Shown here: positions 2,636 to 37,587 of the stretch, in pieces
Position numbering within the stretch: position 1 is the first letter of the stretch
Layout of the letters: the number at the start of each line of letters is the position of its first letter
Virus record (IMG/VR): IMGVR_UViG_3300043446_001021
Coordinates: 1-40,698 of that record
Strand: one strand, 5' to 3'
DNA: 40,698 bases
DNA from: a virus
The notes under the pieces: generated by a model
Databases searched by the model: none
Seen by the model: the letters and a program-made list of their open reading frames with translations, nothing else
Told to the model about the DNA's origin: nothing
Position numbers and translations under genes: made by a program

Positions 2636-2869
2636 TTAAGTAGTTGCAAATACAATATTCCAAATATCTTTAACCATTTGTGGTTCTTGGGTAATGTCAG
2701 AATCAGCGTACAATCTATAGGAGTAGTTTTTAACTACAGGCAACAATTCGTCGTCAGGATCGTCTAGTGTAATTACAGTATCTACCCATAGGGTTTTAGG
2801 TTCTGCTATAGGCACTTGTGTGGCTTCAGTAAACCTAATTGCACGTATTTGCGTAGTTTTAGTTATCAT
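2636..2869 (-). CDS. Hypothetical protein, 77 residues
   Basis: I do not recognise this protein. It is short and acidic in the middle (DDPDDELLP), begins MITKTTQIRAIRFTEATQ and has no membrane segment or Cys/His motif. Its start lies inside the last codons of the S74 fibre gene (11-base overlap) and its end is followed after twelve bases by the 56-residue module gene. The tight packing and the lack of any competing frame support it being real. By position it could be a small fibre-associated protein or chaperone, but nothing in the sequence shows that. Confidence 0.6.
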   Translation of the reverse strand: MITKTTQIRAIRFTEATQVPIAEPKTLWVDTVITLDDPDDELLPVVKNYSYRLYADSDITQEPQMVKDIWNIVFATT

Positions 2870-4142
2870 TGTACTTGTCCTTTAACACCTTTAATTCCTC
2901 TGCAAGATTATTTACCTTTGTAGTTAACTCTTTTATAGCCTCAATAAACAATCCAGCAAAATTTCCATAAGCAACACCATATTCGTCGGTATCACTAGCA
3001 TAAGTAACTACCTCTGGTGTTATTAAGTCTACTTCTTGTGCTATTACACCTATTTCACGCTTATCTTGCAAGTTTTTAACAGGATTATCAATTTTGCTAT
3101 AGTAAACACCGCGCAGTTGATTTACTTTGGCTAGTGCACCGTCTATAGTAACAATATCTTTCTTTTTCCGCCTATCAGAAGCTTCTGTTATAGTGCTTGT
3201 TGTATATAAACTGCCACTAAGGTATACACTATAGGACGCACTAGTTGTGCTGCTGTTTAGGCCTATATAGCTGGTGTTATATGGGCTATATATTATCCAG
3301 TGTCCACTACTGCTGTCGTAGAGCCCGCAATCAGTATTATCTCGCCCCATCCAGGTAAAATCGTTGGTAATATTCCAACCTTGCCAACTGCCTACACCAG
3401 CACCATAAGTAGAAGCATTACCATAGCTAGCACCTGAGCTGCCTGCCGACCATAGGCCATAGCCTTTATCTTGAAAGTATAAGCCTGTATCGCCTTGGGG
3501 TCTAAACCAATTATTTGCATATACTGCACTTAATTGCGAACTACCATTTGGATTTAAATAATAACCTGTATCATTACTATCATAGAAAATTGGTGCGCGT
3601 ATATCGCCTGAAATAGTCAAAACACCAGTACTAGGATTCCAGGTTGCTTTTGAGGAACTAACGCGGGCATTTAATGTGCCAGTAGTAGCTGTGGCGAATA
3701 CTGGATAGTAAGTGCTATTAGTAGTTGTATCATCAGTAATAGTGCCACTGCCTGCAGCACCTGTAGCACCTGTGGTACCTTGACTGCCAGTAGCACCTGT
3801 AGTGCCTGTGGTACCTTGCACACCTTGAGTACCCTGTGCACCGTTAACACCTATAGTACCATTAGTGCCTGTAGTACCTTGCACACCTTGCACACCCTGT
3901 GCACCGTTAACACCTATAGTACCATTAGTGCCTGTTGTACCTTGAGTACCAGTAGTACCCTGCACACCTTGCGGCCCTGTAGTACCCTGTGCACCAGCTA
4001 GGCCCTGTGGACCGGTGTTAATAGCTCCATTACTAGCACTGGTAATTTGTCCACTTTCATTAACAGTAATATCTGCGCTGGTATAGCTGCCAGCTTGCAC
4101 ACCAGTGGTAGCTATAATCCTAGCTGGAATTTTTGTAACCAT
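2859..4142 (-). CDS. Collagen-like tail fibre with C-terminal S74 chaperone/autoprotease
   Basis: The protein has 427 residues. Residues 1-43 are a probable attachment end (MVTKIPARII... AGSYTSADITV). Residues 44-132 are Gly-X-Y triplets dominated by GTQ, GTT, GVQ and GAT. Residues about 135-315 form the receptor-facing middle, containing FYDSNDTGYYLNPNGSSQL, a motif frequent in phage fibres upstream of such chaperones. Residues about 318-427 are a peptidase S74 (intramolecular chaperone) domain: SDRRKKKDI with candidate catalytic Ser322 and Lys326 or Lys327, then GVIAQEV, and a C-terminal coiled coil. In this family the chaperone trimerises the fibre and cuts itself off just before the serine. 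AGGA lies six bases before the ATG. A shorter fibre of the same design as its neighbour. Confidence 0.88.
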   Translation of the reverse strand: MVTKIPARIIATTGVQAGSYTSADITVNESGQITSASNGAINTGPQGLAGAQGTTGPQGVQGTTGTQGTTGTNGTIGVNGAQGVQGVQGTTGTNGTIGVNGAQGTQGVQGTTGTTGATGSQGTTGATGAAGSGTITDDTTTNSTYYPVFATATTGTLNARVSSSKATWNPSTGVLTISGDIRAPIFYDSNDTGYYLNPNGSSQLSAVYANNWFRPQGDTGLYFQDKGYGLWSAGSSGASYGNASTYGAGVGSWQGWNITNDFTWMGRDNTDCGLYDSSSGHWIIYSPYNTSYIGLNSSTTSASYSVYLSGSLYTTSTITEASDRRKKKDIVTIDGALAKVNQLRGVYYSKIDNPVKNLQDKREIGVIAQEVDLITPEVVTYASDTDEYGVAYGNFAGLFIEAIKELTTKVNNLAEELKVLKDKYNDN

Positions 4143-4388: not shown

Positions 4389-6446
4389 TCAGTTTCCTTT
4401 CAGGGTTGCAAGTTCGGCTTTCACCGAGTCGAGTTCGGATTTGAGTTCTTGGATGGCGGCAGTTAAAGTTGCCACAAGGAATGAGGTATCAACGCCTTGG
4501 TACTTGGGGTTGCCATCTTCATCCACGGCATCCTTCTCGCCAGTCACTGCCTGCGGACAGACTTCAGCAAGTTCGTGGGCGATGAAGCCCTCGCCATCAG
4601 AGCCGTCTGATTTCCACTTGTAGGTGCAAGGCTTGAGTGCAGCGACCTTAGCCAATGCACCAGTCATGGGTTGGATTTCTTCTTTCAGACGGTAGTCTGA
4701 TGATGTGTTGTAAGCAACGGCAGTTGTTCCGTTTTGCGAAATAGTACCAATGACGCTACCGGCGAATAGGAAGTCCGCGTAACCGTTGCCGCTTACTGTA
4801 CCCGAGGCGTGACCCACTTGAATTCGTGGGCCGCCGGTAGTTGACGGGCCAAGAATTCTGGTTCCAGCATTGGCCGTCGAAAAGTAATCGAAGCTAACAA
4901 CTGCATTGTTATCGACGACAATCCTCGGATTCCCATCCCCATCAGACAGCACGATGTAGTTGTTGAGAGTGCGGATGTCGAGGCCACCTTCGTTCCCGTT
5001 ATATGCGCCGAGGATGGTGTTTTTAGTACCAGTCGTTACAAGGTATCCCGCACCAAAACCCCCAGTATCACAGCCAATAAAAGTGTTACCACCACCTGTT
5101 GTGTTGTAACCTGCCCATATGCCAACAAAAGTGTTTCCACTGCTAGTGGAGTTTAAGCGCCCTGCCGCAGTGCCAACATAAGTGTTGTAAGAACCCGTTG
5201 TATTTGTATAGCCTGCTCCCCAGCCAATTGCCACAACCCCTGCCCCAGTTGTGTTGCTATACCCCGCTTGATAACCAACGGCTGTGTTTTCAGAGGCGGT
5301 GGTGTTGGCGTTTAGCGCGCTGTTACCAATAGCGGTATTGTACGAACCTGAAGCATTTTGCAATGAATTTAAACCTATTGCGGTGTTATAGCTTCCTGTT
5401 GCAAGCGACATTGACTGATAACCAAATGCCGCATTTTGTGTGCCAGTAGTGTTTGCTTTGCCAGCATAAGCACCCACAAAAGCATTGTAGTTTCCAGTTG
5501 TGTTTCCATAACCAGCTTGATAGCCTAAAGCGGTTATTTCAGCACCAGTCGTATTACTATACCCCGCCTGATAACCCACAGCGGTGTTGCTGTTGGCGGT
5601 GGTGTTGGAGTAGAGCGAACGAAAGCCAAGAGATGTATTGTTTGCGCCAGAACTATTGGCTTGCAAAGCATATTCACCAATGCCAGTGTTGCCACTACCC
5701 GTATTTGCGTTCAAAGCGCCATAGCCAACAGCAGTTACAGAGTCAGCGGTAGACATGGTTACACCAGCCGCCGCCCCAATAACTGTATTTCTTGCACCTG
5801 TCGTATTCGCCGCCAAAGCACTCGCACCCACCGCAGTGTTGGTGGCTACAGCGCCTGCGCCACGGCCTAGGGTAATACCATTAACACCAAGTTGCGCTCC
5901 GTCAAAGGTAAGCACACTACCGCTTGTCGCCACCTTGGAGGCGTTGAGGTACAAGACACCGTTGGCAGTGCCAGCAGTAAGTACAGGATTTGCACCTAGT
6001 GTTAGTACACTGGTAGTTTTGTTGTAGGTAAAATTACTGCTGCCAGCCAGTGTGCCCACATCATTAAACTGTACCTGCGTGTCACTGCCGCCGGGTCCCA
6101 ATTTACTTAAATCATCACTGTGCCAGGTTTCGCCACTGACCAGTTGAACACGTTGCAGTATACGCTGTGTGCCACTGACATCCAGCTTAATGACGACTAT
6201 GACCGGTGCGGTGTCACGATTGTACACACTAATAGACTTGATAGTACGTTTAACACCACTAGCAGGCGCAGCAACCAGGGTAACATCAGTGGTGCCATTG
6301 AGCTGTCCATCACTGCTTAATTCCGAAAAAGTATTATCGCTTGTATCAGCATAGGCCACTACAAAATCAGGATTACTAGTAGCTACGCTGCTGGCTAATA
6401 CAGCCTTAATACTCTTAGCGGTTGAATCTAAAACTATTATTTTCAT
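4389..6446 (-). CDS. Tail fibre with YadA-like head repeats and S74 chaperone
   Basis: The protein has 685 residues. Residues 1-115 form a beta-rich N-terminal attachment domain. A GPGGSDTQVQFND motif at about 117-129 opens a standard phage fibre linker. Residues about 195-480 are tandem repeats of the NTAVG(Y/A)xAL..NTTG type, as in trimeric autotransporter (YadA) heads, forming a left-handed beta-roll trimer. Residues about 580-685 are a peptidase S74 domain, SSDYRLKEEI with Ser583 and Lys588, followed by GFIAHEL and a helical tail. Self-cleavage before Ser583 would release the chaperone. Base composition is unusually GC-rich from about 6.3 kb down to the gene end (for example 35 G/C in the 60 bases at 4501-4560), unlike the AT-rich tail-tip genes, which suggests horizontal acquisition. 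Confidence 0.9.
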   Translation of the reverse strand: MKIIVLDSTAKSIKAVLASSVATSNPDFVVAYADTSDNTFSELSSDGQLNGTTDVTLVAAPASGVKRTIKSISVYNRDTAPVIVVIKLDVSGTQRILQRVQLVSGETWHSDDLSKLGPGGSDTQVQFNDVGTLAGSSNFTYNKTTSVLTLGANPVLTAGTANGVLYLNASKVATSGSVLTFDGAQLGVNGITLGRGAGAVATNTAVGASALAANTTGARNTVIGAAAGVTMSTADSVTAVGYGALNANTGSGNTGIGEYALQANSSGANNTSLGFRSLYSNTTANSNTAVGYQAGYSNTTGAEITALGYQAGYGNTTGNYNAFVGAYAGKANTTGTQNAAFGYQSMSLATGSYNTAIGLNSLQNASGSYNTAIGNSALNANTTASENTAVGYQAGYSNTTGAGVVAIGWGAGYTNTTGSYNTYVGTAAGRLNSTSSGNTFVGIWAGYNTTGGGNTFIGCDTGGFGAGYLVTTGTKNTILGAYNGNEGGLDIRTLNNYIVLSDGDGNPRIVVDNNAVVSFDYFSTANAGTRILGPSTTGGPRIQVGHASGTVSGNGYADFLFAGSVIGTISQNGTTAVAYNTSSDYRLKEEIQPMTGALAKVAALKPCTYKWKSDGSDGEGFIAHELAEVCPQAVTGEKDAVDEDGNPKYQGVDTSFLVATLTAAIQELKSELDSVKAELATLKGN

Positions 6447-6455
6447 GTAATAATC

Positions 6456-9400
6456 CTAACTTGTAAACCATAAAAGTCTTTTTACCTGTGTTGTTGCTGG
6501 TGTTGGTGTACCTGTTGGTCCTTGTACGCCTGCTACGCCTTGGGGTCCTATTAGTCCACCTAGTACACGAATTTGTATTACGGTACCTAATTGTGGTGTA
6601 ACTACAAAATCAATGTTACTACCATTGATAGTATAGCTGTTAGTTGGTAACTGCATGATACCGTTTAGCGTTACAATTACATTGTGCACTGTTAGACCAC
6701 TAATAGCAGCAAAACTACTAGTAGTACCGTCGCCAGTGTATGTGTAAGTAGTGTACTCACTAACGGCTAGTCCAGCACCTGCACCTTGCACACCTTGAAC
6801 GCCTTGTACGCCTGTAGTACCTTGAGTACCCTGCGTGCCTGTAATACCTTGTATACCTGCTGTACCACTAAGGTCATTGATATACTGATAGCTGCTGCCA
6901 TTCCACAAGTATAGCTTGCTATTATCTGCGTCTTGAGCGTTACCAGTATCAATTAGTGCAAATTGTCCACTAATTATACCAGTTGGACTAGTATCAGCTG
7001 TTAGTGCCGCTACAGAGCTATATACTTTAGCTACTGTAAATGCAAGTCCAGTTGTACCTTGTGCACCAATTGTACCTTGAACACCTTGCAAACCAGTATT
7101 TCCAGTTGTACCTTGTATACCTATTAGTCCGCCAAGTACACGCAGTTGAATTATACTAGTATTAGGTGGCGCACTAACAAATACTACATTAGCACCACTT
7201 ATAGTATAATTTGTAGTTGGTAGCTGTGTAATACCGTTTACACTTACTAATACAGTATGAACTGTTAGGCCACTTACTGCAGCATAACTAGTTGTAGTAC
7301 CGTCACCAGTGTATGTAAATGTAGTATACTCAGTTACTGCTAGTCCAGCTCCAACACCTTGCACACCTTGTGTACCAGTATTACCTTGTACACCCTGCGC
7401 ACCCTGCACACCTTGAGTACCCTGTGTACCTTGTGTGCCCTGCATACCCTGTATGCCTATTAATCCACCTAGTATACGAAGCTGAATTATACTACTATTA
7501 GGTGGTGCGCTAGTAAATACTACATTGCTGCCACTTATAGTATAATTTGTAGTTGGTAGTTGTGTAACACCATCTACTACAACAAGTACAGTATGAACTG
7601 TTAGGCCACTTACCGCTGCATAACTAGTAGTAGTTCCGTCACCAGTATATGTATAGGTAGTGTACTCAGTTACTGCTAGTCCAGCACCTATACCCTGTAT
7701 ACCTTGCACACCCACAGTACCCTGCACACCTTGTGTACCTTGAGTACCCTGTACACCCTGACCACCAGTGCTACCAATAACACCGCTAGTACCTTGTACA
7801 CCAGTTGTACCTTGCACACCTTGTAAGCCAGTATTACCCATAGGCCCAGTACTACCAGCTACACCTTGTATACCTGCTGTACCGCTAAGGTCATTGATAT
7901 ACTGATAAGTGCTACCATTCCACAAGTATAGTTTGCTATTATCAGCATCTTGTGCATTACCAGTATCAATTAGTGCAAATTGTCCACTAACTATACCAGT
8001 TGGGCTAGTATCAGCTGTTAATGCGGCTACAGAACTATATACTTTAGCTACTGTAAATGCTAAACCTGCTGTACCTTGACTACCTGTTAAACCTTGAATA
8101 CCCTGACTACCATCAGCACCTATATAACCTGCAGTACCTTGAACACCTTGTACACCATCAGCACCTATATAACCTGCAGTACCTTGAACACCTTGTAGAC
8201 CTTGTGGTCCTTGTGTACCCTGTGTACCTTGAACGCCTTGTGTACCTTGTGTACCTTGTACGCCTTGGGTTCCTTGTGGTCCCTGAGTGCCTTGTATACC
8301 CTGTGGGCCAGTTAATCCAATTAAACCTAAATTACCTTGTGGACCTTGTGGTCCTTGTAAACTTTGTATACCTTGTATACCTTGTGGACCAAATCTACCT
8401 TGTACACCTTGTGGGCCTTCTAAACCTTGTATACCTTGTATACCTTGACGTCCATAGTTACCTTGTATGCCCTGTATACCCTGACCAGCTAAACCTTGCG
8501 GACCTAGATCACCTTGTATACCTTGCAAGCCCATTGCAGCATATTCACCTGGTATACCTTGCTCACCTTGTGGACCAACTGGTCCTGCTGGACCTTGTAC
8601 ACCCTGTGCGGCAAAGCTGCCTGGTAAGCCTTGTAAACCTTGAACACCTTGTAATCCACTGGCACCTTGTGCTCCATCATTACCTTGTACACCTTGAGCA
8701 GCATAGGCACCATCTAAGCCTTGTAAACCTTGTACACCTTGACTTGTTAATCTACCCCAGTATGTAGTATTTACTACGCCTGGACTAAATTCAGGAGCTT
8801 GTTCACCAAAATTACCTTGGTATATAGCTACAAAACTACTACCATTATAAAATACTACATCATCAGTTTTATAGAAGCTAAAGCCACTATAGTTACCGCG
8901 ATAGTTTAGTTTTGAACCTTGTATACCTGGTCCACCTTGTATACCTTGTATACCTTGTGGGCCTTGATCTCCATCTTCGCCAAAGTTACCTTGCAAGCCT
9001 TGTATACCTTGAGTACCCTGGCTAGCCTGCGGACCTTGCAACCCTTGACGACCTTGTACACCTTGTATACCACGCTCGCCTTGTTGTCCTTGTGTACCTT
9101 GCACACCTTGTATACCTTGAGTACCTTGTATACCTTGATTACCAACTGGACCTATTACACCTTGAATACCTTGTGCTGCATATAGTCCGTCTAAACCTTG
9201 TACACCTTGAATACCTTGTATACCGCTACCTATGGGACCTTGAATACCTTGAGCTGCTACTTCACCTGGTATACCCTGCAAACCTTGGAAACCTTGTACG
9301 CCTAGATTACCCTGTGGTCCTTGCACACCTTGACCAGCAAACAATCCATCTAAGCCTTGTATGCCTTGTGTGCCCTGTACACCTTGTACACCCTGTACGC

Positions 9401-12400
9401 CTTGTAAGCCCTGTAAGCCTTGAGTACCTTGCGGACCTACAAAGCTACCAATATTAACCCATGTTTGTCCGTTCCAAACCCACAAATTACGATCAATTAC
9501 ATAGGCGTCACCTATTTGATGATCTTCTAGTGGTAGTAGTACTGGTGATGTTAGCGTACCTTTGATTAAAATACTACTAGGATTAATACCACCAATTGTA
9601 CTACCTGTAGGTAGTGTAATACTTCCTTCTTCAGTACTACTTAAACTTGCACCGCCTAAGTTAATAGTATTGCCGCTAAGATATAAATCTCTAAATCTTA
9701 GTGTGGGGCTACCTAGGTCAAAAACCTCATTTTGAGTAGGTATAATATGTGTGCTAATAGCTTGTAGGTTTGTAGGTGATACTGTACCTGCGGGACCTTG
9801 GCTACCACGTATACCTTGTACACCTTGAGCAGCATATAAGCCACTTAGACCCTGTGTACCTTGAGCACCTTGTGTACCACTACCTGTAAAACCTTGTAGA
9901 CCTTGTAAACCTTGTGGACCGTCAGCAGGACCTTGTGGCCCTATAACGCCCTGTGTGCCTTGTGTACCTTGTGGACCATTAGCAGGACCCTGTATACCAC
10001 GAAACCCTTGTACACTTAACCTATTCCAGTAATTACTATTAACACTGCCTGGAACTACTTCGGGCGCTTCATTAACAAAACTACCATTATAAACAGCTAT
10101 AAAACTATGACCAGCATAAAATACCGCATCATATTTTTTATATGTTCTAATACTGTTGTAGTCGCCTGTCCAATTTATTGCAGGGCCTTGAGTACCCTGT
10201 GTGCCAGTTGTACCCTGCGTACCTTGCACACCTTGAAGTCCTTGTACACCTTGTCCAGCAAACTCACCTGATAAACCTGTCTTACCTTGGATACCTTTGG
10301 CAGCTACTAGTGCCCAGAATTCATATAGTGTTAACTCAGGATCTGTACTTATGTTATCATCTATAAGGCTAATATAAGTTGAATCCTTATAGTATACCAT
10401 GTCATTAATGCCATAGTATATATTTGGATCCCAAATACCACGCCACTCTAGTGGTATACCTGCGGTACCTTGTGCACCAATACCCATTGGGCCTTGTGTG
10501 CCTTGTATACCGCGAAAACCTTGTACACCTTGTAGTCCTTGACGTCCTGTAGTACCTTGTACTCGCTGGCCTTGAATACCTTGAATACCTTGAATACCTA
10601 GTGGGCCTTGAATACCTTGTCCAGCAAATGCACCTGTTAAACCTTGTGCACCTTGTGCACCGGCAACACCTTGCATTTGTTGATATCCATAACCTTGTAA
10701 ACCTTGATAACCTTGACTACCTGTACGACCTTGTGGACCTTGACGACCTTGTATGCCTTGTGGACCTTGAGTACCAGTACGGCCTTGAACACCTTGTGGC
10801 CCGTTATCGCGTCCTTGTATACCTTGAACACCTTGATAACCCCACCAACCTTGTGTTCCCTGACGGCCTTGCACTCCTTGAGCACCACGAGAACCCTGTG
10901 GGCCTTGAACACCTTGTCCAGCAAATGCACCATGCAAACCTTGCATACCTTGGTTGCCACGAATGCCTTGGCTACCTGTAGCACCTTTTGGACCTAAATC
11001 GCCTTTGTCACCTTTAAAACCTTGTGGCCCAACACGACCTTGTACGCTTGTACCCTGCTGACCCTGTGTGCCTTGTACACCTTGTCCAGCAAACATACCG
11101 TGTAAGCCTTGTGGACCTTGAGTACCTTGTACGCCTTGGGTACCTTGGCGACCTTGAATACCTTGCAGTCCCTGGAACCCTTTAAAACCTTGAACGCCTT
11201 GACGACCTTGTACGCCTAGATTACCCTGCGGTCCTTGTACGCCCTGGCCAGCAAACATTCCATGCAACCCTTGTGGACCTTGCGTACCTTGTATACCCTG
11301 AGTTCCCTGAACTCCCTGGATACCTTGAACACCCTGGCTGGCAACCAAATCCCAGTATATTCCTGGCGCTGGATAAGCAGCCGCACTATCAAATCCTGTT
11401 GGTATTCCATCAATTTTTGCAATCCAACTATTACCTAGATAGTGTACAACATCATATTTTTTATAATTAGTTGTACTACTATATGTTCCACGCCAGGTAA
11501 ATCCTAGACCTTGAATACCTTGAGTACCCTGTACACCTTGACCAGCAAATTCACCGTGTAACCCCTGTGGGCCTTGTAGGCCCTGCGTACCCTGTACACC
11601 CTGTATACCACGCAATCCTTGAGGTCCTTGTATGCCTTGCTCACCTTGTATGCCTTGTGTACCTTGCACACCTTGTGGGCCTTGTATACCTTGCGGACCT
11701 TGTATACCTTGTCCAGCATACATACCATGCAAACCTTGCATGCCTTGTACACCTTGTGGACCTTGCGGTCCCTGCAATCCTTGTACGCCTTGGCCAGCAT
11801 AAAAACCATGCAAGCCCTGCATACCTTGTATGCCTTGTGGACCGCGTATGCCCTGTGAGCCTTGTGTACCTTGTATTCCAGTAGTACCTTGAATACCTTG
11901 CGGACCATCTAAGCCTAGTGGACCTTGTACACCTTGTGCTGTCATGCGATTCCAGTATGTAGTATTTACTACACCTGGGCTAAACTCTGGTGCTTCCTCT
12001 GCAAATGTTCCGCTATCGTATACAGCAATATAGCTATCACCAAAATAATAAACTACATCATTTTTAGTATAGTATTCTGTAAAGGTATAATCACCACGCC
12101 AAGTTACTGCAACACCTAGAGTACCTTGAACACCTTGTATGCTATAACCTTGTATACCTTGTATACCTTGTGCGTCAAATAATCCACGTAGGCCTTGAAC
12201 ACCTTGTGGACCTTGCATGCCCTGCAAGCCTTGTCCTGGTGGACCTTGTATACCTTGTGCTGCATAAGCACCACTTAAACCTTGAGTACCTTGGCTACCA
12301 GTAGTACCTTGAAGACCTTGTGGACCTATAATATAACCTACAGCACTTACAGTATTATCTGTATAAGTAAGTGTTAATACTCCAACATCGTCTATTGTTA

Positions 12401-14999
12401 CTTGGCTAATACCGGTACCAATAATACCTTGTGTACCTTGTAAACCATAGTAGCCTTGTATACCATAATAACCTTGAGTTCCTTGTGCACCTTGTAAACC
12501 TTGAGCACTCATTTTTTGCCAATAAGCGCTATTAGTATTACCAGGACCAAACTCAGGAGCTTGCTCAAAGAAATCTAAAACATTAGATATGGCTATAAAC
12601 GTAGCACCGGCATACTGTACAACATCATATTTATTATAGAAGTTGTACTGGCTATAATCACCACGCCAGTTAAAACCAATACCTTGATAGCCTAATAAAC
12701 CTTGAACACCTTGTATACTTTGACCTTGTATACCTTGTATACCTTGACCAGCAAAAGCTCCATCTAAACCTTGTGTACCTTGTGCACCTTGAGCGCCTTG
12801 TGTACCTTGAATACCTTGAATACCTTGAGTGCCTTGAGGTCCAGCATCGCCTACGGTAAGTGTACCACTATATACAGTACTAAGCTGAGATACATAGTAT
12901 AGCTCACTGGGAGCATTTAATGGTACTGTAAAAGTTATTCTACCTTCAAGTGCTCCATTATTTATTAAACCTGGTTCATATACACTGCCACTACCAGCTT
13001 GCGGATAGGTTTTAATATAAAATCTATTATTATATTCACTGATAACATCAAAGTAGTAGGTGAATCCGCGAATAAGATGTAGTGTAGGGTTTATACTACC
13101 ATTTATATTCCAGCCGGAACCAAGCGCAAAATTTACTTGATGGTTTATACCGCCAACTAAACCTTGAGCACCTTGTAGCTGCTGATAACCAAATCCTTGT
13201 AAACCCTGTAAACCTTGTATACCTGTAGTACCTTGGGGGCCTTGTGTACCCTGCGTACCTTGTACACCTTGCAAACCTTGAGTGCCTTGCAAACCTTGAC
13301 TGGTAAGTCTACCCCAGTATTCGCTGTTAGGTACTCCTGGGCTAAATTCTGGTGCTTGTTCAGCAAACACACCGTTGTAGGTAGCAACAAAACTGCCGCC
13401 ATTATGAAATACTACGTCTGAGCGTTTATAAAATTCTGTAAAGCTGTAATCACCACGATAAGTATACTCACCGCCCTGTACACCCATTACACCTTGAATA
13501 CCTTGTATACCCTGATCACCACGATTACCAGTTACAGCAAATGTTATTATAACATCATCTGCGTCACCAAAAGAAGTAACACTACCACTAACATAAGTAC
13601 AGTTAATGATAAAGAAACCCTCATCTTCTAGGATACTAGTAATAGCATATAGTGCAAATACATTGCTATTAGGTTTGCTGGTTACTTTAAAGTGGCCTTT
13701 AATAGTACTTGTACCAGCATTAAGTGTACGTAAAAATGGTTGTATATCAAATGGACCATCTTGTTCGTCATCAATATATAAGATGGTAGCTAATGTAAGA
13801 TTACTGTTATTAAACTTTAATTTGCCGCTGCCAGGATCATTGGCAGTGGTAAGATTACTAAATGTATAGTCGAAACTAGCCCCTCCAAATTCTCCAGTTA
13901 AACCCTGAAGTCCTTGGATGCCTTGTAGTCCCTGCGGACCTTGTAGTCCCTGTAACCCCTGTGGACCTTGTAGTCCTTGTGGGCCTTGTAGACCTTGTGT
14001 ACCTTGCCTGCCTAATAAACCTTGTGTGCCTTGTACACCTTGAATACCTTGTACACCTTGTACACCTTGTGTTCCTTGTATACCTAATAAACCTTGTGGT
14101 CCTTGTAAACCTTGAACACTAATTATTTCCCAGTGATCACTAGCTTCCATGCTAGGTTCAATACCACCAAAACCAGTGGCAACTCTAAAGGACATAGTTC
14201 CTGTAAGAGTACCCTCTGTTGTTTCAGCATCTATTCCACCTAACTCTGGGCTAATAGTAAACCATGAGCTACCATTAGTATCAATAATATAATAATCAGT
14301 ACCTTGTGGATCATAACCTGGTAATATACCTGTTCCAGTATTTACACCTGTTACACTAACACGGTCACCAATTAAAAATCCGCCAGGTAGTGTTGTAGCT
14401 AAACAGTCAATACGACCATTTTCTTTTATATCAACGCCGTTTAGTAGAACACTATTGCCTAGCCCGCGTATAGCAATCCAACTGCTGCCTAAATGAAAAA
14501 CTGTATCATTAGTATTATAGATAGCGGTGTCGTCGTATAAACTACGCCAAGCAATTCCAAAACCTTGTATACCTTGTAGTCCCTGTGGTCCTTGTATACC
14601 TTGTAGTCCCTGAGGTCCCTGTATACCTTGTAGTCCCTGAGGTCCCTGTACACCTTGTAGTCCCTGTGGTCCTTGCAGACCTTGGATACCTTGTATGCCT
14701 AAATTACCTTGGATACCTTGAATACCTTGTAGCCCCTGCGGTCCTTGTATGCCTTGCATACTTTGTGGACCTTGAATACCTTGAAGGCCTTGAATACCAA
14801 ACAACCCTTGTACACCCTGCACACCTTGTGCATCGTACATACCTGCAATACCTTGAACCCCATAGAAGCCTTGTATGCCTTGGGGTCCTAGGGAACCAAC
14901 AGTAATTATTGTTGGTTCTTCTTTATCGAAAATTACTTTTGGCTGATCGGACTCGATAACTACGGTATTACCAGTGGAAGTAACTACAGTAGTTGTCAT
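6456..14999 (-). CDS. Giant modular collagen-like tail fibre, 2,847 residues
   Basis: Residues 1-35 are a non-collagen lead. The rest alternates long Gly-X-Gln triplet runs ([15 protein letters not shown]) with globular inserts. Eight inserts share a W-R-G-x-Y ... Y-x-K-x-D-V-V ... F/Y-I-A ... APEF-x-PG ... YW pattern of about 55 residues, like carbohydrate-binding (CBM5/12-type) modules; their first Trp or Tyr lies near 14547, 13460, 12666, 12100, 11493, 10443, 10170 and 8900. Further inserts are an FCCH-like domain near residues 175-270, two near-identical [11 protein letters not shown] modules and three TYTGDGTT modules near the C terminus. Such triplets form triple helices in known bacterial and viral collagen-like proteins. 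It is most likely a long trimeric side or tip fibre. The start overlaps the previous stop as ATGA. No S74 chaperone ends it, unlike its neighbours. Confidence 0.88.
6500..14895 (-). repeat. Nine-base-periodic collagen-coding repeat tract
   Basis: Most of this stretch repeats units of CAAGGNNNN on the coding strand (CCTTG every nine bases on the plus strand), encoding Gly-X-Gln. It is interrupted by the globular inserts of the fibre. Within it are longer near-copies: about 6858-7050 resembles 7870-8066, and three TYTGDGTT-type blocks at about 6557-6775, 7118-7345 and 7460-7690 resemble each other. The tract is not a CRISPR array, because the units are short, coding and lack unique spacers. It is a likely site of slippage, unequal recombination and assembly collapse. 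Confidence 0.9.
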
Positions 15000-16142: not shown

Positions 16143-19100
16143 TTATAGTGGCGTTCCTACTTGGCCACCTATGTTTATTACTTGTGAAGTAGCACTAGTT
16201 CCGCTAGCATTGTCTGCAATTTGTACAGTAAATGCTCGCTCATATTCTGCCGAATACATACTAGCTTCCCGTAATTTTATATTATGAGAAATCATATCAT
16301 TGGCAACATAAGTATGTGCATCTTCAACCTCAATACTAATAACTTCTCCAGTACCTTGATCTTCAATACTTGTTATTTGTTTCATACCATTTCTGCGCGA
16401 AGCTACAAAATCACCAGGTACTAAGTCAAATAACTGTTTCCATTGACGATTTCCAATATAGAATTTATGAGATGTAGATACTAATAGTGTAGTATTATCA
16501 CTAAAAGTTACTAATGCTTTAGGCTTAGTAGTTTGTTGTATTGCTACAATATTAAACGTATCCCAATATTTTGTATACTCGTGCATTGTATACACTTGCA
16601 TACCAACTTGTAAATCTTTTGCTAATACTGTAGTTCCTTCAACATCTACCAATATAGGTGTCATAGGATCTACACACCTATAGCCTGTGGCTTCTGCATA
16701 AAAGTTTTGCATAGCTCCTAGCTGTGTCCAACCAAGATTACTAGAATGTGAGCCTCCACCACCTGAATTAGTTACTGAAGTGCTGGTAACATTAATCCAG
16801 TATTTGCTTCCTATTCCTGGTGTAGTTGGCGTAAACCAATTTCCACTACTTGTTGTACCAGTACTTTCTTTAGCTTGCCAAGTACCATCTGGATAAAAAT
16901 ACACTGTAGCACCAGCACTAACACTAGCACTTGGAGATGTTACAAAATAGTTACCAATTCCGCTTAGTGATACACTACCACCAGTACCAGGTGTTTGACT
17001 ACTATCTGTTACTGTTACCGTAGGATTACTAGCAAAAGTAATTGTTGAACCTATGTCATTAGTTACTTCTATTTGAAAAGATTTGCTAGCTGTGGTTTCG
17101 TTATCTTCTAGTGCTTTAATAGTAAATGTTCCGCTACCACTATTAATTGTTATAGTACCGCTTGTAGGTGAAAAATACTTTGCGGGATTATCTACATATC
17201 CTGCACTTGGTTTAATTACCCAGTATAGTAAAGTACCGTCAGTAGGCGCATTAGCTGTAGCAGTAACTGTGCCAGTAGTTGTACTATTATCTGTTTCGTT
17301 AATAGTACCTGGACTAAATGCTAAACTATAAGTGGGTCCTAGCGAAGTATCATTTACTGTAATTGTGCCTGATGTAGCTACAACACCTACGCCAGCTTTT
17401 GATATTTCTACTGTAAATGTTTTTGCTTGACCAGTTGGATTAGTAGTTTTATCATTAATCGGTTTTATACTAAAGGTGCCGCTACCATTGCTACCAATTG
17501 TAAGACCACCTGCAATTTCCTCATAATGACTATTATTACTAACCGTACCAGTGTGAATTATTTTCCACTGATAGCCGGTACCTGCATCAATATTTGTAGT
17601 TGCAAGTGTACCAGTTAAAGTTGCACCCTCGTTTACACTACTAGCTATAGTTAGTGTATGAGTTGCTGCTCCTGCTGAACTTAAATAGTTTAATAGTGAC
17701 AATGTACCTGCATGTAGCCATGTACCACTTGGCAAGGTAGGACTATTTAATCTAAATGTATAATCTCCAGCTGTGGTTACGTTAAACTGTGCTCTATTTA
17801 CTTGAGTAAGAGCTGTATTAAGACGAACCGTTTGACTTTTACCAGCTACTCCATCTACCTTATCATTAGTTAGTGTAGTTGTGCCTCCACTAGCAGTAGG
17901 TGTTACACTAAAACTCCAGCTTCCACCACCTTCTCCAATATAACCGCTACCACTTACATTAGAAATAGTTATACTACCACTATTTACAGTTCCTGCCTTG
18001 CTGGTTAGTTTACCTTCAAATTTGGTAGAGTCTACTTCTTTAGCCCATTGTCCATAGCCAGTACAAGTTGCTCCACCAATACCACTTACTTCAGCAACAA
18101 TAGTAGCTTGCTCTGTTACAGCACCATCGCTAGTGCTAAATGTATCTTCTTTGTAAAAACTAGAGTATATAATTATTTCATATATACCTTTAGCTAGTGT
18201 AACTGTGCGTTCTACAGCAGTAGTAGTTAATCTTGGCATTGCAAGTGCCCAAGTAATGTTTATATTGTTTCTTAGACTTTGTAAGTCTAATTTTCCAACA
18301 GTTAGTGCACCTGCATTGATTAAATCAGCATCTATTGTTCCGCCTTTAATTTTACTGGCAGTTAGCTCACTAATTTTTGCGCTATCAATTGCAGCATTAG
18401 CAATTTTAGCATTAGTTATACTAGCATCTTCGATAAATGCATTATTAATATATACGCCAGGTGGAATAGTTACACTAGGATTACCTGTAGGATCTAATAG
18501 TGTTCTAGCGGTTGAATTAACAACAAATGGAAACATATCAGATTTTGGTACACTAATCCATTCACCACCTGTAGCTGCACCTAAACTATTTTTAGTTTCG
18601 CTCCAATATTTAGTAGTGCTCTTAATACCTGTACTTATTGGTTTACCGTTCCTAGTTAAACTAAGTACAAATACACTACCACTTACACTAGTTATATAGT
18701 AAAACGTGCCACTAGATTTATAACTAGCACCTAACTTAAGTGCGGAATCTTTTCCACCACCATTAGCTTCTGTAAGTATAGTTTCTGTACCCGTAATGTA
18801 TAGTGTCTTATCTACTGCAAAAGTACCTGTTGCAGTAAAATTTCCTACTTTGTCAGCGTTTTTTGTAGCTAAATTAGTAATAGTACTAGGAGTATAAGCT
18901 TTAATACAAACATAGTATACGTTACTATCTAAGTCATATACATAATCTTTTAGTGCATATGTAGCTGTAGCTGACCATGCTCCGCGATTAGTATACCCAC
19001 CTATATCTACTTGTAGTTTATCTAGTTGAGTTTTAGTTTTTAATTCCCAGTAGTGATAAGTAGAGTCACTAGCGTATGTAATGGGGTTATGTATACTTGG

Positions 19101-20207
19101 GCTATAGGTATTATATACAACTGTAACACCGCCTATTAAACCTTCATTTAATCCTACACCGCTAGTATCTACCCAGACTCGTCCATGCCACTTTACTGTA
19201 GGTGCTGTTGAACCTACGACTGCTGGTGCAGCTACCCAGAACCTATCAGCAACTACTCCAAACTCACTAAAAGGACTACCATCACTAAGTGCTGAACCAT
19301 TAGCTAAAGTACTGGTGTTAGATAGACCAAAACCAGCTACATGCCCAGCATTGTCAATTTTAACCGTATACTGATCGCTAAGCTGACTTACTTCTACAGC
19401 TACACGTTTTTCTCCTCGATCAACGCTGCTTATGCGACTTTGCAGTCCTTTATACAACTGGCCTTCAGTAATCTGATTTGCCATCATATCAAGAAACTTT
19501 TGCATGTCTAGGCCGGTTTCGCACATAAACGGACCTTCAGCTCCAGCGCTTAATCTACCAGCTTTATTTCTATACTTAAAAAACAGTGCATAAATTGTGC
19601 CGGCTTCTGCTGGAAGTGTAAAGATTTTTTTATCTTCAAACTCGCCTAGTACACTATCCTGTACCGCACTAAATGCTACAGCTTGTAACAATGAATTTGC
19701 TTTAATGCCATAAACAACTGTTGATTTATGCGTACTACTAGCATTAGTTCTAAGAGTACCTGCTGCATAATCACTGTAATTATAGTCTGTACTTTGTGAT
19801 ACACCAGAAACTGTACTACTAGGTAATGTAACGATAATAGTACTAATAGCTGCACTAACGCTTATGCCTAGTGGATTGGGTGGTAGATCTGTAGCTATAG
19901 CGGTTATATTAGCTTTAGGAATAAAACTATATTGGCTACTAATAGTAAATATAGTAGGGTCAAGTGCACTAGTAAGAGCATACCTAAAATAGTGAGTTTT
20001 TTCAACTTCTAAATTAGTTATTGTTGCTTGTAATCCTTCAGCATCCCACAATAAGTTTCCGCTATCTGGAGTAAAATTATTAGTTTTACTTACCCATACT
20101 TTTAAGTTTTTCTGATCGTCTCGTACAATAGTATTAAGCGAAATAATATCTTGTCTATCAATTGCTAATACTAAGGAGGCTACTCCTGCTGTATACTTAC
20201 TAGCCAT
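16143..20207 (-). CDS. Tail-tip/central fibre protein with DUF1983-like region and Hint domain
   Basis: The protein has 1,354 residues. The N terminus is fibronectin-III-like (about 1-110), and the middle holds helices and strands typical of the C-terminal half of lambda gpJ-type proteins (QITEGQLYKGLQSRISSVDR; then GFGLSNTST and KWHGRVWVDTSG). The series INNAFIEDASITNAKIANAA at about 575-600 is a repeat seen in phage tip proteins. Two Calx-beta-like Ig repeats follow at about 850-960 and 960-1070. A Hint domain occupies residues 1178-1309 and is annotated separately; 45 residues follow it. The gene begins two bases after the previous stop with a strong GGAGG site and is followed by a terminator. 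Together with the preceding 1,644-residue protein it appears to form a split J-type tip. Location: distal end of the tail. Confidence 0.82.
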   Translation of the reverse strand: MASKYTAGVASLVLAIDRQDIISLNTIVRDDQKNLKVWVSKTNNFTPDSGNLLWDAEGLQATITNLEVEKTHYFRYALTSALDPTIFTISSQYSFIPKANITAIATDLPPNPLGISVSAAISTIIVTLPSSTVSGVSQSTDYNYSDYAAGTLRTNASSTHKSTVVYGIKANSLLQAVAFSAVQDSVLGEFEDKKIFTLPAEAGTIYALFFKYRNKAGRLSAGAEGPFMCETGLDMQKFLDMMANQITEGQLYKGLQSRISSVDRGEKRVAVEVSQLSDQYTVKIDNAGHVAGFGLSNTSTLANGSALSDGSPFSEFGVVADRFWVAAPAVVGSTAPTVKWHGRVWVDTSGVGLNEGLIGGVTVVYNTYSPSIHNPITYASDSTYHYWELKTKTQLDKLQVDIGGYTNRGAWSATATYALKDYVYDLDSNVYYVCIKAYTPSTITNLATKNADKVGNFTATGTFAVDKTLYITGTETILTEANGGGKDSALKLGASYKSSGTFYYITSVSGSVFVLSLTRNGKPISTGIKSTTKYWSETKNSLGAATGGEWISVPKSDMFPFVVNSTARTLLDPTGNPSVTIPPGVYINNAFIEDASITNAKIANAAIDSAKISELTASKIKGGTIDADLINAGALTVGKLDLQSLRNNINITWALAMPRLTTTAVERTVTLAKGIYEIIIYSSFYKEDTFSTSDGAVTEQATIVAEVSGIGGATCTGYGQWAKEVDSTKFEGKLTSKAGTVNSGSITISNVSGSGYIGEGGGSWSFSVTPTASGGTTTLTNDKVDGVAGKSQTVRLNTALTQVNRAQFNVTTAGDYTFRLNSPTLPSGTWLHAGTLSLLNYLSSAGAATHTLTIASSVNEGATLTGTLATTNIDAGTGYQWKIIHTGTVSNNSHYEEIAGGLTIGSNGSGTFSIKPINDKTTNPTGQAKTFTVEISKAGVGVVATSGTITVNDTSLGPTYSLAFSPGTINETDNSTTTGTVTATANAPTDGTLLYWVIKPSAGYVDNPAKYFSPTSGTITINSGSGTFTIKALEDNETTASKSFQIEVTNDIGSTITFASNPTVTVTDSSQTPGTGGSVSLSGIGNYFVTSPSASVSAGATVYFYPDGTWQAKESTGTTSSGNWFTPTTPGIGSKYWINVTSTSVTNSGGGGSHSSNLGWTQLGAMQNFYAEATGYRCVDPMTPILVDVEGTTVLAKDLQVGMQVYTMHEYTKYWDTFNIVAIQQTTKPKALVTFSDNTTLLVSTSHKFYIGNRQWKQLFDLVPGDFVASRRNGMKQITSIEDQGTGEVISIEVEDAHTYVANDMISHNIKLREASMYSAEYERAFTVQIADNASGTSATSQVINIGGQVGTPL
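16281..16676 (-). other. Hint (intein-type) domain within the tail-tip protein
   Basis: The 132-residue segment (residues 1178-1309) begins CVDPMTPILV, has the block A pattern with an N-terminal Cys, a block B His in LLVSTSHKFYI, the strand LVPGDFVA, and ends HTYVANDMISHN with the terminal His-Asn pair of inteins. No homing-endonuclease insert is present. The residue after Asn1309 is Ile, not Cys, Ser or Thr, so standard splicing is not expected. This fits bacterial-intein-like domains, which often cleave rather than splice. The flanks (QNFYAEATGYR and IKLREASMYSAEY) look like one interrupted beta-rich domain. Confidence 0.82.
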
Positions 20208-20209: not shown

Positions 20210-23200
20210 TTAGCCTCCGTCAGTAAGAGTAGGTGGTTGAATTGTACGAATATTAATACTTCCAAGTAAACTTGTGCTAGAATAATTCTCAGTTCCGTCT
20301 ACAGCTCTACAAGCTATTCTATACTTAATGCCAGGTGCAGTTTCTGTAATAATAGGATTAGATCCGTCAATAGTTAATTTTAATAAATCAAATACAGCCA
20401 CATGACTATTACGAATCATTCTATAATTATTAGTTTTATCTGTATTTGTCATAAATTTAACATCATCCCAGAAATCACCACTACCACTATTTCTATACAA
20501 TCTAAACTCGTAAAGTCTATGATTGTCTGGAGGTATAGTTGTATTACCAATTGTGGGTCTTACTACTAAATTGGTGCCTTCAAGAGTAATGAGCAATCCT
20601 GTTGCATTAAAAAGATTGAGTTTTTTTCCACTCACTTGAAATAGTCCTTCTTGTGTCCACGGTCCAAATATACTACCAATAAGATTGGTATATCTAGCTC
20701 TAATTTTATATACGCCGTCTGTTTTTAATCCGGTTATAGTTAAAGTGCTTGAATCTTTTTCTACATAATACGGATTCTTTACTATATTAACATCAAATAA
20801 CTGTGTTGCTTCAATAATTTCTACCTGTATTTTTGCTAGACCTTTTATAGCTGTTGGTGGATTTGCAAAAGTTACTATTGTGGTGTTTACATAATTACCA
20901 GTTGAAACTTGTTCGCTAATATTATTAGAAGAATTAATGCTTATTATTACTGGCACGTAAGTTATAGTATTTTTTACAATATCTGTATTAACTAATGTAA
21001 TATTACTATTAAATTTTGTACTTAGTTTATTAATATTAGTAGTATAAATATCTGCGGCATAATCCATTAGTGTTAATTTAGCCGAAACATTTGAAGTTGG
21101 TTCTATTGATAGTACTACTAAGTCTTGAGTAACTTTATTTTCTTCACCAATCATTACCAGATTATCTGCTTCTACGCCAGTTAAACTGCCACTAACAACT
21201 TCTACTTTATCATAGTAATTACTAGTTGTTGCAGTAGTTACTAAACTACCAGCTACAGTTACCGGCTGAATTACTAGTGTAACACTAGGTATACTAGTAA
21301 TACCACTACTTGTTGGGTTTTTTCTTACCAACATTCTGTAGGATTTTGTTATATCAAACAGTATGCTTTCAGTTAAAGTAATAATATTTTTTGTACTAAT
21401 AACACTGCTAGATTTAATTCTAGCTGTGCCGCTGCCCCATAGTGGTACATCATGGGTTACCTTAACAAGATCACCTCGTGTGCACACTAAGTACTCAAAG
21501 TCTACATTTATTGAATAACGTTCTGGGCGCTTATGCAACTGTGCAAGATGCCACTTAGCAAAAAACTCTACTTGATCTTTGCTTGTAACGCCTGGAAACT
21601 GTATTTGCTCAAACTTTTCAGCAACCCTAATTTCTGCAGTGCCACTACCAGTAGCTGTACTGCCAGTTGCTACAAATATTTTTCCAACAACGTTTTCACT
21701 AGCTCCTACTGTTGTAAAGTCAGTGCCACCTAATGTTTTTATAAAGTATGTTTTTCCGGCTACAAGTGCACTGGCATTAACTGTACTAGCTGTTTTATCA
21801 TATCCCCAGTCATAAACTAATGCTTCATCAGCCTGATAACCTTTAGATTCATTAGGAAAACTTATTCTAAATGCATTAGGTATTTTTACTAATAATTTAG
21901 TGCTTTCAAATCCCCAACTATTATGTGGTGTAAAATGTTGTATAGTATTAGTTTTAGCTTTGTCAACTACTACACTCCATTTACCGTTAATAAATGTAGG
22001 GCTAGCCATTCCAGCAGCACATATATCCTTTAGTACTTCCATTAAATTTTGCGTACTAGTAATAACGTTATTATAACTTAGTACAGGCTTTCCTGTTACT
22101 GCATCTGGTGTAGCACAAAAGGTATACCATTCTTGCAAAGCCGTTAAATCTAATTCACTATCACTTACAGGATAAGTATTTGCGGTATGCTGTAGTACAT
22201 ATCTATATAGACTAGCAGGATTATTAGTATTGCCTATTTCCCAGGCGCTACCAGTCCAGATTAATGCTCTAGTAGTTACAAGTGCATTTACGCCTTCAAT
22301 ATTACCATTTACCTTACTGGAACTTTGTACAACTATTGCTGTTCTGGCTAAATTTCTATAATCTGTAACAGTATTGTATGTGGTGCTATTAGTATAGTTA
22401 CGCCAGGTTCTTATAGGCAATGCTTTAATAGGCGGTGTACTACTATCGCTAGCAGTTATAGCATATAAAAAGCTACGCCAAGCATAGCGAATATCACCAT
22501 TTTCTGGTATGCTTGTAGTTAAGCGTTTTACTCCAACAGTATATCTGGCTAAAGGTAATGGGCCTGGATAATCATATATAAAATTAAATCCATCTTTATC
22601 GTTTCTGTTTACTACTATTGTTCTAATGGCAGAATTTGGGTTTACATTATTTTGACCATCCCAAATAAAACTAATACGTAACGCTACACCACGATTACAC
22701 TCTGTTACTGTAAACGTTTCGCTATCACCCTCTCTATTAGTAGCAGTTACACTAACTGTGTGAGAACCTGCTTCTACATACACTTGTTGACGTGTTGCAT
22801 TAGTTGGAGAACCATATTCATTTACATTAGTATCCCAAGTGCTTTTACTAGTTAATTTTAAAACACCGTCAATATAAAAATTAGCTGAATTGTCTGCACT
22901 TAAATCTACTGTATAAATACCACTATATGGGAACACTACATTGCTTCTTGTTAGTGTAACAACATCATCAGTACTAGGTATACTGGTACCAGTATTAGTT
23001 TTCCATACTGCGTTATCTTTTAAAAATTGATTTTTCTTCCAAGCGCTGCTGGTTACAGTTACTACATCTCCTGTAAATGTATAAGGTACTCCACTAACAC
23101 CTGCTGCACTATTAAATAACACTAAATTAGTTTCAGCACTACTAATACTACTAGATATAGAGCCTTGGGCAATAGTAATATTATTACCACTATAAGTGCT

Positions 23201-25144
23201 AGTTAATCCTGTAAATGTAAAATTAGCCCCATAACCACTACGTAAATCACTAGAGCTAATAATTCCAGTATGTGTTTGTACATAGCTAGCTAATTTTATA
23301 TAGTTGCTTGGTACATCTGGCTCCCATTTAAAACCACTTTGATCAACTGGTACAGTTACAGTAGCAGGATCATTGTCACCAGTGGTAGCTGCTTCTACTA
23401 TATATGTATAAGATCCAGTATATAAACTTCTAGCTAGTGATTCTGTGGGGTTGCTACCATTAGTTTCGCTAAGGCCTCCACTAAATATTCTCAATGAACC
23501 ATTAGTTTCTAGTGCTACTATACTTTTTCTATAAAGCGGTGTTATTATGGTTGTCTCATATACTTCATTATTTAAAGCTTGTGTTGTATGCTCCTTAGGA
23601 ACTACACCAAGTGATAGTGTAACACTACTTTTAAGCTCATAAGGTTTTACAGCTTGACTAGTAGGCAGTGTAGGATTTACCGGATCTAATGTAGCAGCAT
23701 TTCCATATATTTCTGGAAATACTATAACTGCAAGTTGAACTTCTGCTTCGCTAGTTTCGCCATCTTTAACATTGATTTGTCGTAAACCATCAGGAAAATT
23801 AAAAGCTATTTTAAGACTAGTAGACTCTTGTGCAAAAGTAACCCATTTCCATGGATTGCCGCTACTATCGTTTACTAGCTCAACGCTACTACTTGGTAGC
23901 TGCTGTACATCACTAGGATAGTAACTATCAAATAATTGTTTATCACTAGCAGACTCTGCTGCCGCTATTCCTTCTAGTGTAAAGTATTTTTCATTGCCAC
24001 TAATAGGATTGCTGGCACTATCTGCTTGTTGAATTAATCTACTAATTGGTGTGCTACCAACACTAATAGTGTTACGGTCTATGTATAGTGGACCAAATCC
24101 CCAAATAACTAACAGCCTAAGTAAACTAGTGCGTTCTAGTGCCTCTAAATAGGGCGCAGCTCCTAGTAATCCAGTAACTCGCTGAGTACCTAGTACAACA
24201 GGTATAGCACCAAACGGATTTGCTTGATTTTGGGTACCACTAAATAAGTTAGTAGGCGTACCTTGCCCAGGATCTTTTGGTTGACGTATAGGAAATGCAG
24301 CATTTACTAGCGCAAACCCTGCAAATTGTACTGCTAGTGTGCCGGCCATTTGCCAGCCGCTAGCAGTACCTATAGTGGTTGCAACATCTATACCACCAAT
24401 TGTTTGAGCAGTAGCAGCAGCTTCCATGCCCGCTGTGCCTAGTATTGGGCCTAGATAGTAGCTAACTACAAGTACGGCTATAAATGCAATTAATCTACCT
24501 GCAGGACCTCTGCCTTGTGCTACTACCTTATAACTAATGTTACTTTTTTCAGTAAAATAAGTGGTTGCCCACAGTTCTTGTGGTATTGGTACTCCATCTA
24601 CCATTAGTACTAGTCGTTTTTTTAAACCTGTGCTTAACTTATAACGTACAGATAAATAATCTGCAAACGCCTGTGCACTAGTACCGGCCTGTGCTGTTTC
24701 TACAACAGTATTCCACTGTAGCGGATTTGGTACACCTGTTACTTGTAACAAATTTACTGTTTCTGTATATCTATAAAAGCCTTCTAGTCGACGAAACCAC
24801 TGAGGACTATTTAATCGCTCAATTACACTATCTTTGCCATCACGACTATGTAAAAACTTATCACCGCCAATGTATACACCAACGTGTATGGGTTCACCTA
24901 ATATATTAAATAAACATAAGTCGCCTAGTTGTGGAGTGCTTACTTTAGACCAGCTATCTTTAAAATAGTTAATGGTAGCTACAGCCTTAGGGTCGTAGCT
25001 ACCATCGTATAAATCAGCATAACTAGGTAACTTTATACCTAGCTGCTCATCATAAAATATTCTTGCTAATCCCCAACAGTCTACTCCAGACTTATCTCTG
25101 CCATTCTCTTTATATGGCAGACCTATATAACTGTCATAATTCAT
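20210..25144 (-). CDS. Fused NlpC/P60 peptidase, lambda I-like and lambda J-like tail-tip protein
   Basis: The protein has 1,644 residues. Residues 1-126 are an NlpC/P60 domain with Cys23 in DKSGVDCWGLARI, His87 in EPIHVGVYIG and His99, as in lambda gpK, which cuts peptidoglycan during tail-tip action. Residues about 130-285 resemble lambda gpI (KRLVLMVDGVPIPQELW, then a hydrophobic stretch LIAFIAVLVVSYYLGPILG). From about 290 the lambda J-like tip begins (NLFSGTQNQANPFGAIPVVL, GPLYIDRNTISVG) and continues to the C terminus. A PA14-like insert (YSGIYTVDLSADNSANFYID) lies at about 737-812, and a GKTYFIKTLGGTDFTTVGAS insert at about 1123-1172. In lambda these parts are separate genes. The gene starts on TAATG with the L-like stop and is followed after two bases by the second tip protein. 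Confidence 0.88.
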   Translation of the reverse strand: MNYDSYIGLPYKENGRDKSGVDCWGLARIFYDEQLGIKLPSYADLYDGSYDPKAVATINYFKDSWSKVSTPQLGDLCLFNILGEPIHVGVYIGGDKFLHSRDGKDSVIERLNSPQWFRRLEGFYRYTETVNLLQVTGVPNPLQWNTVVETAQAGTSAQAFADYLSVRYKLSTGLKKRLVLMVDGVPIPQELWATTYFTEKSNISYKVVAQGRGPAGRLIAFIAVLVVSYYLGPILGTAGMEAAATAQTIGGIDVATTIGTASGWQMAGTLAVQFAGFALVNAAFPIRQPKDPGQGTPTNLFSGTQNQANPFGAIPVVLGTQRVTGLLGAAPYLEALERTSLLRLLVIWGFGPLYIDRNTISVGSTPISRLIQQADSASNPISGNEKYFTLEGIAAAESASDKQLFDSYYPSDVQQLPSSSVELVNDSSGNPWKWVTFAQESTSLKIAFNFPDGLRQINVKDGETSEAEVQLAVIVFPEIYGNAATLDPVNPTLPTSQAVKPYELKSSVTLSLGVVPKEHTTQALNNEVYETTIITPLYRKSIVALETNGSLRIFSGGLSETNGSNPTESLARSLYTGSYTYIVEAATTGDNDPATVTVPVDQSGFKWEPDVPSNYIKLASYVQTHTGIISSSDLRSGYGANFTFTGLTSTYSGNNITIAQGSISSSISSAETNLVLFNSAAGVSGVPYTFTGDVVTVTSSAWKKNQFLKDNAVWKTNTGTSIPSTDDVVTLTRSNVVFPYSGIYTVDLSADNSANFYIDGVLKLTSKSTWDTNVNEYGSPTNATRQQVYVEAGSHTVSVTATNREGDSETFTVTECNRGVALRISFIWDGQNNVNPNSAIRTIVVNRNDKDGFNFIYDYPGPLPLARYTVGVKRLTTSIPENGDIRYAWRSFLYAITASDSSTPPIKALPIRTWRNYTNSTTYNTVTDYRNLARTAIVVQSSSKVNGNIEGVNALVTTRALIWTGSAWEIGNTNNPASLYRYVLQHTANTYPVSDSELDLTALQEWYTFCATPDAVTGKPVLSYNNVITSTQNLMEVLKDICAAGMASPTFINGKWSVVVDKAKTNTIQHFTPHNSWGFESTKLLVKIPNAFRISFPNESKGYQADEALVYDWGYDKTASTVNASALVAGKTYFIKTLGGTDFTTVGASENVVGKIFVATGSTATGSGTAEIRVAEKFEQIQFPGVTSKDQVEFFAKWHLAQLHKRPERYSINVDFEYLVCTRGDLVKVTHDVPLWGSGTARIKSSSVISTKNIITLTESILFDITKSYRMLVRKNPTSSGITSIPSVTLVIQPVTVAGSLVTTATTSNYYDKVEVVSGSLTGVEADNLVMIGEENKVTQDLVVLSIEPTSNVSAKLTLMDYAADIYTTNINKLSTKFNSNITLVNTDIVKNTITYVPVIISINSSNNISEQVSTGNYVNTTIVTFANPPTAIKGLAKIQVEIIEATQLFDVNIVKNPYYVEKDSSTLTITGLKTDGVYKIRARYTNLIGSIFGPWTQEGLFQVSGKKLNLFNATGLLITLEGTNLVVRPTIGNTTIPPDNHRLYEFRLYRNSGSGDFWDDVKFMTNTDKTNNYRMIRNSHVAVFDLLKLTIDGSNPIITETAPGIKYRIACRAVDGTENYSSTSLLGSINIRTIQPPTLTDGG

Positions 25145-37577: not shown

Positions 37578-37587
37578 CTTACTCCTC

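Follow-up and report, generated by a model that had tools for sequence, protein, structure and literature searches.

A Hint domain resembling type-A bacterial intein-like domains in a phage tail-tip protein, and a family of phage tail Hint domains with a lysine beside the C-terminal junction

Introduction

Inteins of phages are usually regarded as parasites of DNA enzymes. For the bacterial intein-like (BIL) domains of ciliate BUBL loci, amine conjugation has been suggested. The S74 intramolecular chaperone is a C-terminal module of phage tail proteins that is thought to be removed after assembly. Type-A BIL domains end with His-Asn, lack a nucleophile at +1, mostly cleave and can splice via the freed amine (PMC4031507; also PMC7664689, PMC5874633, PMC7765530); the reviews disagree on the efficiency of this ligation (PMC4031507, PMC7664689, PMC5874633, PMC7765530).

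The Hint domain considered here is found in a virus record of 40.7 kb (IMGVR_UViG_3300043446_001021; the whole stretch of 40,698 nucleotides is called the window), whose terminase has its best identity (~48%) to terminases of Vibrio phages. A preliminary description had dealt with this domain alone; it is one of 41 Hint domains with Lys at +1 or +2, nearly all of them in phage or prophage tail proteins. It probably serves to process a phage tail protein, as a catalytically competent and domesticated Hint of the type-A BIL kind.

The Hint domain and its host gene

An intein-type Hint domain starting with Cys1178, including a block-B His and ending with His-Asn followed by Ile had been recognized by the preliminary description, and profile, PDB and AlphaFold matches agree with it. 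The Hint identity of residues 1178-1309 is beyond chance. The domain begins at C1178 (CVDPMTPILV), with 1177 residues upstream, and ends with H1308-N1309 (domain His131-Asn132); I1310 is the first of the 45 residues that follow. The block-B His is domain residue 70, within S-T-S-H (S-x-x-H motif), the block-F His is His121, and position F:4 is occupied by Ser114, not Asp.

Taken alone, the domain matches Pfam Intein_splicing with an E-value of 4.2e-8 and 33.6 bits, narrowly missing the curated cut-off (35.8), and NCBIfam intein_Cterm with 17.7 bits, above the cut-off (15.6). Among PDB sequences, it matches the NpuDnaB mini-intein best (3.5e-6). The AlphaFold pLDDT over the Hint is ~90-97, and Foldseek relates the model to the NpuDnaB intein (4o1r, TM 0.83) and to a Clostridium thermocellum BIL domain (2lwy, TM 0.86). 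The lack of a homing-endonuclease core, also part of the preliminary description, is borne out: the 132-aa Hint has no insertion, and Pfam and NCBIfam scans matched no endonuclease family in it.

The host protein had been called a tail-tip protein. This label is retained because the 1354-aa protein has a PF09327 Phage_Tail_Tip match at residues 585-617 (Pfam, 1.7e-6, over the cut-off) and because its gene adjoins a central tail fibre J gene (Table 1). With its Hint and the S74 domains of its tail-fibre-like proteins, the phage of the window may have two different types of C-terminal self-processing.

Table 1. Features of the window. Positions are those of the window; an empty cell means that no strand is given.
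Feature	Position	Strand	Basis and remarks
Tail-tip protein gene, Hint-bearing	16143..20207	(-)	One unbroken ORF, 1354 aa
C-terminal flank, 45 residues	16146..16280	(-)	Ile(+1)-Lys(+2), then two predicted strands (FTVQIADNASGT...)
Hint domain, residues 1178-1309, 132 aa	16281..16676	(-)	Pfam, NCBIfam, PDB sequence match, AlphaFold, Foldseek
N-terminal flank, last 100 residues (1078-1177)	16677..16976	(-)	Five predicted beta strands; ends with GYR, then C
Central tail fibre J protein, adjoining the tail-tip gene	20210..25144	(-)	phrog_31, 2.7e-57; N-terminal NlpC/P60 domain, PF00877, 7.8e-16
Two tail-fibre-like proteins	4389..6446 and 2859..4142		S74 chaperone domain at the C-terminus of each (Pfam)
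2847-aa protein	6456..14999		Mostly G-x-Q-G collagen-like repeats, with other short domains interspersed
670-aa ORF	35625..37637		Resembles by eye a fusion of prohead protease and major capsid protein

Collection of the family

Direct searches gave chiefly terminase and ribonucleotide-reductase inteins (25-38% identity) and one close contig (L002). The flanks of the window protein had few relatives in IMG/VR and among named phages, and viral scans with single proteins likewise gave few relatives. The family was opened by a DNA pattern for CVDPxTPI, which led to L016/L017, L012 and L020; 44 viral loci were then obtained by searching with five aligned domains. A first genome scan found no family members. 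The genome collection added two prophage-like genes of sphingomonads (Stakelama pacifica and Sphingomonas desiccabilis). Genomes of the order to which Stakelama belongs contributed two more members, and a gut phage record one. The resulting set includes 41 distinct Hint domains, nearly all from phage or prophage tail proteins. The search motifs ([DNK][AH]HTY[VI][SA]N and CVDPxTPI) bias this sample to close kin, not to particular flank residues.

Conserved features of the family

Cys1, the block-B His, the block-F His, His131 and Asn132 are found in all members (41/41), as is the block-B motif [TS]xxH (41/41). These catalytic residues are kept down to ~30% identity and in hosts that are not all homologous. 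The F:4 Asp is found in one member (1/41), Lys or Arg being present there in 28/41. The +1 residue is Ile, Lys, Asn, Ala, Val, Leu or Met, never Cys, Ser or Thr (0/41). Since no member has such a +1 residue, clean class-1 splicing is not what selection has kept. Values of dN/dS are 0.06-0.33 for ten close Hint pairs and three tail-tip pairs (dS is high in the latter), and the family is judged from these sequences to be under purifying selection. Conserved catalytic residues and purifying selection thus support a presumably active domain.

The C-tail has 2-15 aa in 34 of the 41 members, in which the Hint therefore lies at most 15 residues from the C-terminus. The seven others comprise the tail-tip trio, three proteins in which the Hint is internal, and a J protein (L116/L119) with its Hint close to the N-terminus. 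Among the hosts are J or tail-fibre proteins (phrog_5616, phrog_31) and a further family of tail proteins (phrog_376), along with proteins whose function is unknown; Gly-rich linkers are frequent just N-terminal to the Hint. No Hint-free J homologues were found in Sphingomonadales. In the tree, the family is not cleanly separated from phage terminase inteins, the intein branches being long and the deep nodes weak.

The J protein of L119 (3662-8122; also L059-L063; phrog_31) consists of 24 aa, the Hint, KGGGKGGG and then J, i.e. the reverse of the C-terminal arrangement. That this N-terminal Hint restores a lambda-J-like start was a conjecture, and the search made for it returned no match.

Flanks and insertion point in the tail-tip proteins

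The three tail-tip Hints (window, L002 and L016) form one supported clade (99/95). They share a common insertion point, with GYR before Cys1 and xK after Asn, and C-tails of 45-47 aa. The FT[IV]QI core of the C-flank is kept in both relatives, L002 and L016. In L002 (2753-7816) and L016 (6842-11162), the tail-tip gene is made up of two ORFs with the break at a Gly-rich linker, the ORF of the window being continuous; in L002, the gap between the two ORFs includes an ORF (5445-5987) that is cupin-like by eye.

In this subgroup, the Hint appears to lie within a beta domain and to interrupt it, because the model gives the N-flank five strands and the C-flank two; the flanks (pLDDT 72-81 in the N-flank, excluding its ends and one loop) are modelled less confidently than the Hint. 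The preliminary description had raised such an interruption as a matter for comparison with Hint-free homologues. The strands predicted in both flanks favour it; no Hint-free homologue of the beta domain was found in IMG/VR or among named phages, so the interruption is read from the model. Autocleavage had also been expected to separate the 45-residue tail from the body. A simple shedding is improbable, given two predicted strands of a beta domain and the kept FT[IV]QI core; since it supplies these two strands, the 45-residue C-flank of the window may remain bound or be ligated back instead of leaving.

Lysine beside the C-terminal junction

All 41 members have a Lys at +1 (7 members) or +2 (34 members), as do all clusters defined under 50% identity (15/15). 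From +3 to +10, Lys occupies 3 of 229 positions in 37 representatives. The phage inteins, all 11 of which have Cys, Ser or Thr at +1, have no Lys at +1 or +2 (0/11). The Fisher values obtained for Lys (~1e-11) overstate the case because the members are related.

Among Hints of alphaproteobacterial genomes without a +1 nucleophile (separate alignment A6), Lys is found in 8/8, a sample that is not independent, as L119, one of the eight, is a phage family member and some rows were known beforehand to carry Lys. Nucleophile-less Hints outside the family (nine from plasmids and three from gut phages) have none (0/12). These twelve rule out a general rule by which the lack of Cys, Ser or Thr at +1 is accompanied by Lys at +1 or +2: the Lys is a mark of the family and of a few bacterial relatives, not a general replacement.

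The shortest tails (L036 and L037) consist of Asn-Lys. Three bacterial proteins (L148, L158 and L153) stop directly after the Hint, with His-Asn-Lys or His-Asn-Lys-Gly. In most of the nucleophile-less plasmid Hints (L168-L176), whose hosts are calcium-binding or hypothetical proteins, Ser occupies +2 (ES, IS, DS, QS, LS), a different possible acceptor pattern. The Lys of the family may be an acyl acceptor, may assist Asn cyclisation or may make a structural contact.

Proposed mechanism

Most likely, judging from its residues, the Hint of the window autoprocesses, N-terminal thioester formation and Asn cyclisation leading either to cleavage or to amine-driven ligation. Cys1 would attack the Arg1177-Cys1178 peptide bond to give a thioester, and His131 and Asn132 would cut the C-terminal junction through Asn cyclisation. 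With neither a +1 nucleophile nor the F:4 Asp, the two steps would be uncoupled and cleavage favoured, giving mainly cleavage products, with some re-joining through attack of the C-flank's freed amine on the thioester.

In most relatives, this would remove the C-terminal module and leave a body ending in a Gly-rich linker, a removal that may be likened, by analogy, to the loss of S74 from other tail fibres. In the window, where the flanks are modelled as one beta domain, the outcome would be a nicked or re-joined domain that does not lose the 45-residue tail: cleavage at both junctions could leave the 45-residue piece within the sandwich, and attack of the amine on the thioester would yield a protein of 1222 residues. 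The processing step would be part of tail maturation or assembly. The papers searched include no report of cleavage of any family member.

Alternative explanations

The preliminary description had stated that normal splicing needs Cys, Ser or Thr at +1. This nucleophile is indeed missing; its absence does not by itself preclude splicing, as type-A BIL domains ligate through the freed amino group (PMC4031507). Efficient splicing, with excision of the Hint and re-joining of the flanks by aminolysis into a mature protein of 1222 residues, would agree with such a ligation by a type-A BIL domain without +1 nucleophile (PMC4031507), with flanks that appear in the model to form one beta domain and with the conserved core of the C-flank; it is nevertheless unlikely, as cleavage dominates in the BIL domains assayed (PMC4031507), the F:4 Asp is lost and the tail of 2-15 aa in most relatives leaves little to re-join. 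The domain could also be a degenerate mini-intein, formerly self-splicing, that has lost its +1 nucleophile and is now inert or merely a tolerated insert. Its closest matches in cultured phages are terminase and ribonucleotide reductase inteins, it has no endonuclease and its +1 residue is non-nucleophilic. The retention of all catalytic residues across deep divergence, purifying selection, the single site shared by all three tail-tip relatives and the family-wide Lys signature argue against decay, which we consider very unlikely; for the window alone, a decayed intein is possible since the tree does not cleanly split the family from terminase inteins.

A further explanation gives the Lys a direct role: at +1 or +2, it would replace the missing thiol or hydroxyl as acyl acceptor, and an amide bond would link the body either to this Lys in the C-flank or to an amine on a different tail protein. 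Its presence in every member and every cluster, set against its scarcity from +3 to +10, its absence from the 11 phage inteins and the 12 other nucleophile-less Hints, the Asn-Lys tails and the bacterial proteins ending with His-Asn-Lys (L148 and L158) speak for this role. However, nucleophile-less Hints elsewhere do without Lys, which makes it a family mark rather than a general substitute, a nucleophile that needs exact placement would not usually move between +1 and +2 as this Lys does, and the counts are not independent in a family of related members. We know of no precedent for Lys as a splice acceptor in an intein, nor of any description of such a ligation for inteins. This role of Lys is improbable; that there is a Hint subfamily in which the junction Lys accepts the acyl group of the Cys1 thioester, joining the body by an amide or isopeptide bond to its own tail or to a neighbouring virion protein, is given little credence.

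Meaning

Intact nucleophile-less Hints that end tail-tip, J and other tail proteins point to domesticated self-processing in virion assembly. The family-wide Lys after the cut site suggests, from sequence, a conserved self-processing step in tail building, and this invariant Lys next to the cut site makes a sharp prediction. Such Hint domains could provide new cleaving or ligating tools.

Comparison with known systems

The literature searched, which excluded the primary BIL papers, includes no description of the phage-tail Hint family, its C-terminal placement, its mechanism or its Lys mark. Automatic annotation already records a Hint in such phage proteins, as BFVD entries from uncultured Caudovirales are named 'Hint domain containing protein'.

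Several classes were rejected for the window Hint. A class-1 intein is contradicted by Ile, not Cys, Ser or Thr, at +1 and by a location toward the C-terminal end of a tail-tip protein that has few relatives, not at a conserved site of an essential enzyme. Class-3 inteins have no Cys1 and a Cys at F:4; here, Cys1 is present and F:4 is Ser114. Type-B BIL domains lack the His-Asn of block G, which is present here. A homing (selfish) intein does not fit a 132-aa element that is only a Hint and matches no endonuclease family. The His-Asn end speaks against a Hedgehog Hog domain, a class marked by cholesterol transfer and a sterol-recognition region.

Phage mini-inteins in terminase or ribonucleotide reductase (Corynebacterium phage Stickynote, Campylobacter phage PC14) share motifs, length and the His-Asn end with the window Hint, at 25-33% identity, but have Thr or Cys at +1 and reside in enzymes. 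The BIL domains of ciliate BUBL loci (6y75) have the same fold (E-value 3e-9) and different hosts. The likeness to the S74 chaperone concerns the role only, by analogy; fold and chemistry are unrelated.

The closeness to bacterial intein-like domains, a type in which cleavage predominates (PMC4031507), put forward in the preliminary description, is upheld by the His-Asn end and the missing +1 nucleophile. By its tested features, taken from sequence and model, the window Hint is classed as a type-A BIL domain: it has the Hint fold, an intein-like N-terminal nucleophile and block-B His, a C-terminal His-Asn, a +1 residue (Ile1310) other than Cys, Ser or Thr, and a place in variable, non-conserved protein regions, as its flanks have few relatives and the hosts of the family are not all homologous. 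The type of chemistry is thus already known from BIL domains. With the type-A BIL domain of C. thermocellum (2lwy), the family shares the Hint fold, Cys1, His-Asn, the lack of a +1 nucleophile and variable hosts; it differs by its location in phage tail proteins, usually at the extreme C-terminus, and by the Lys found throughout at +1 or +2.
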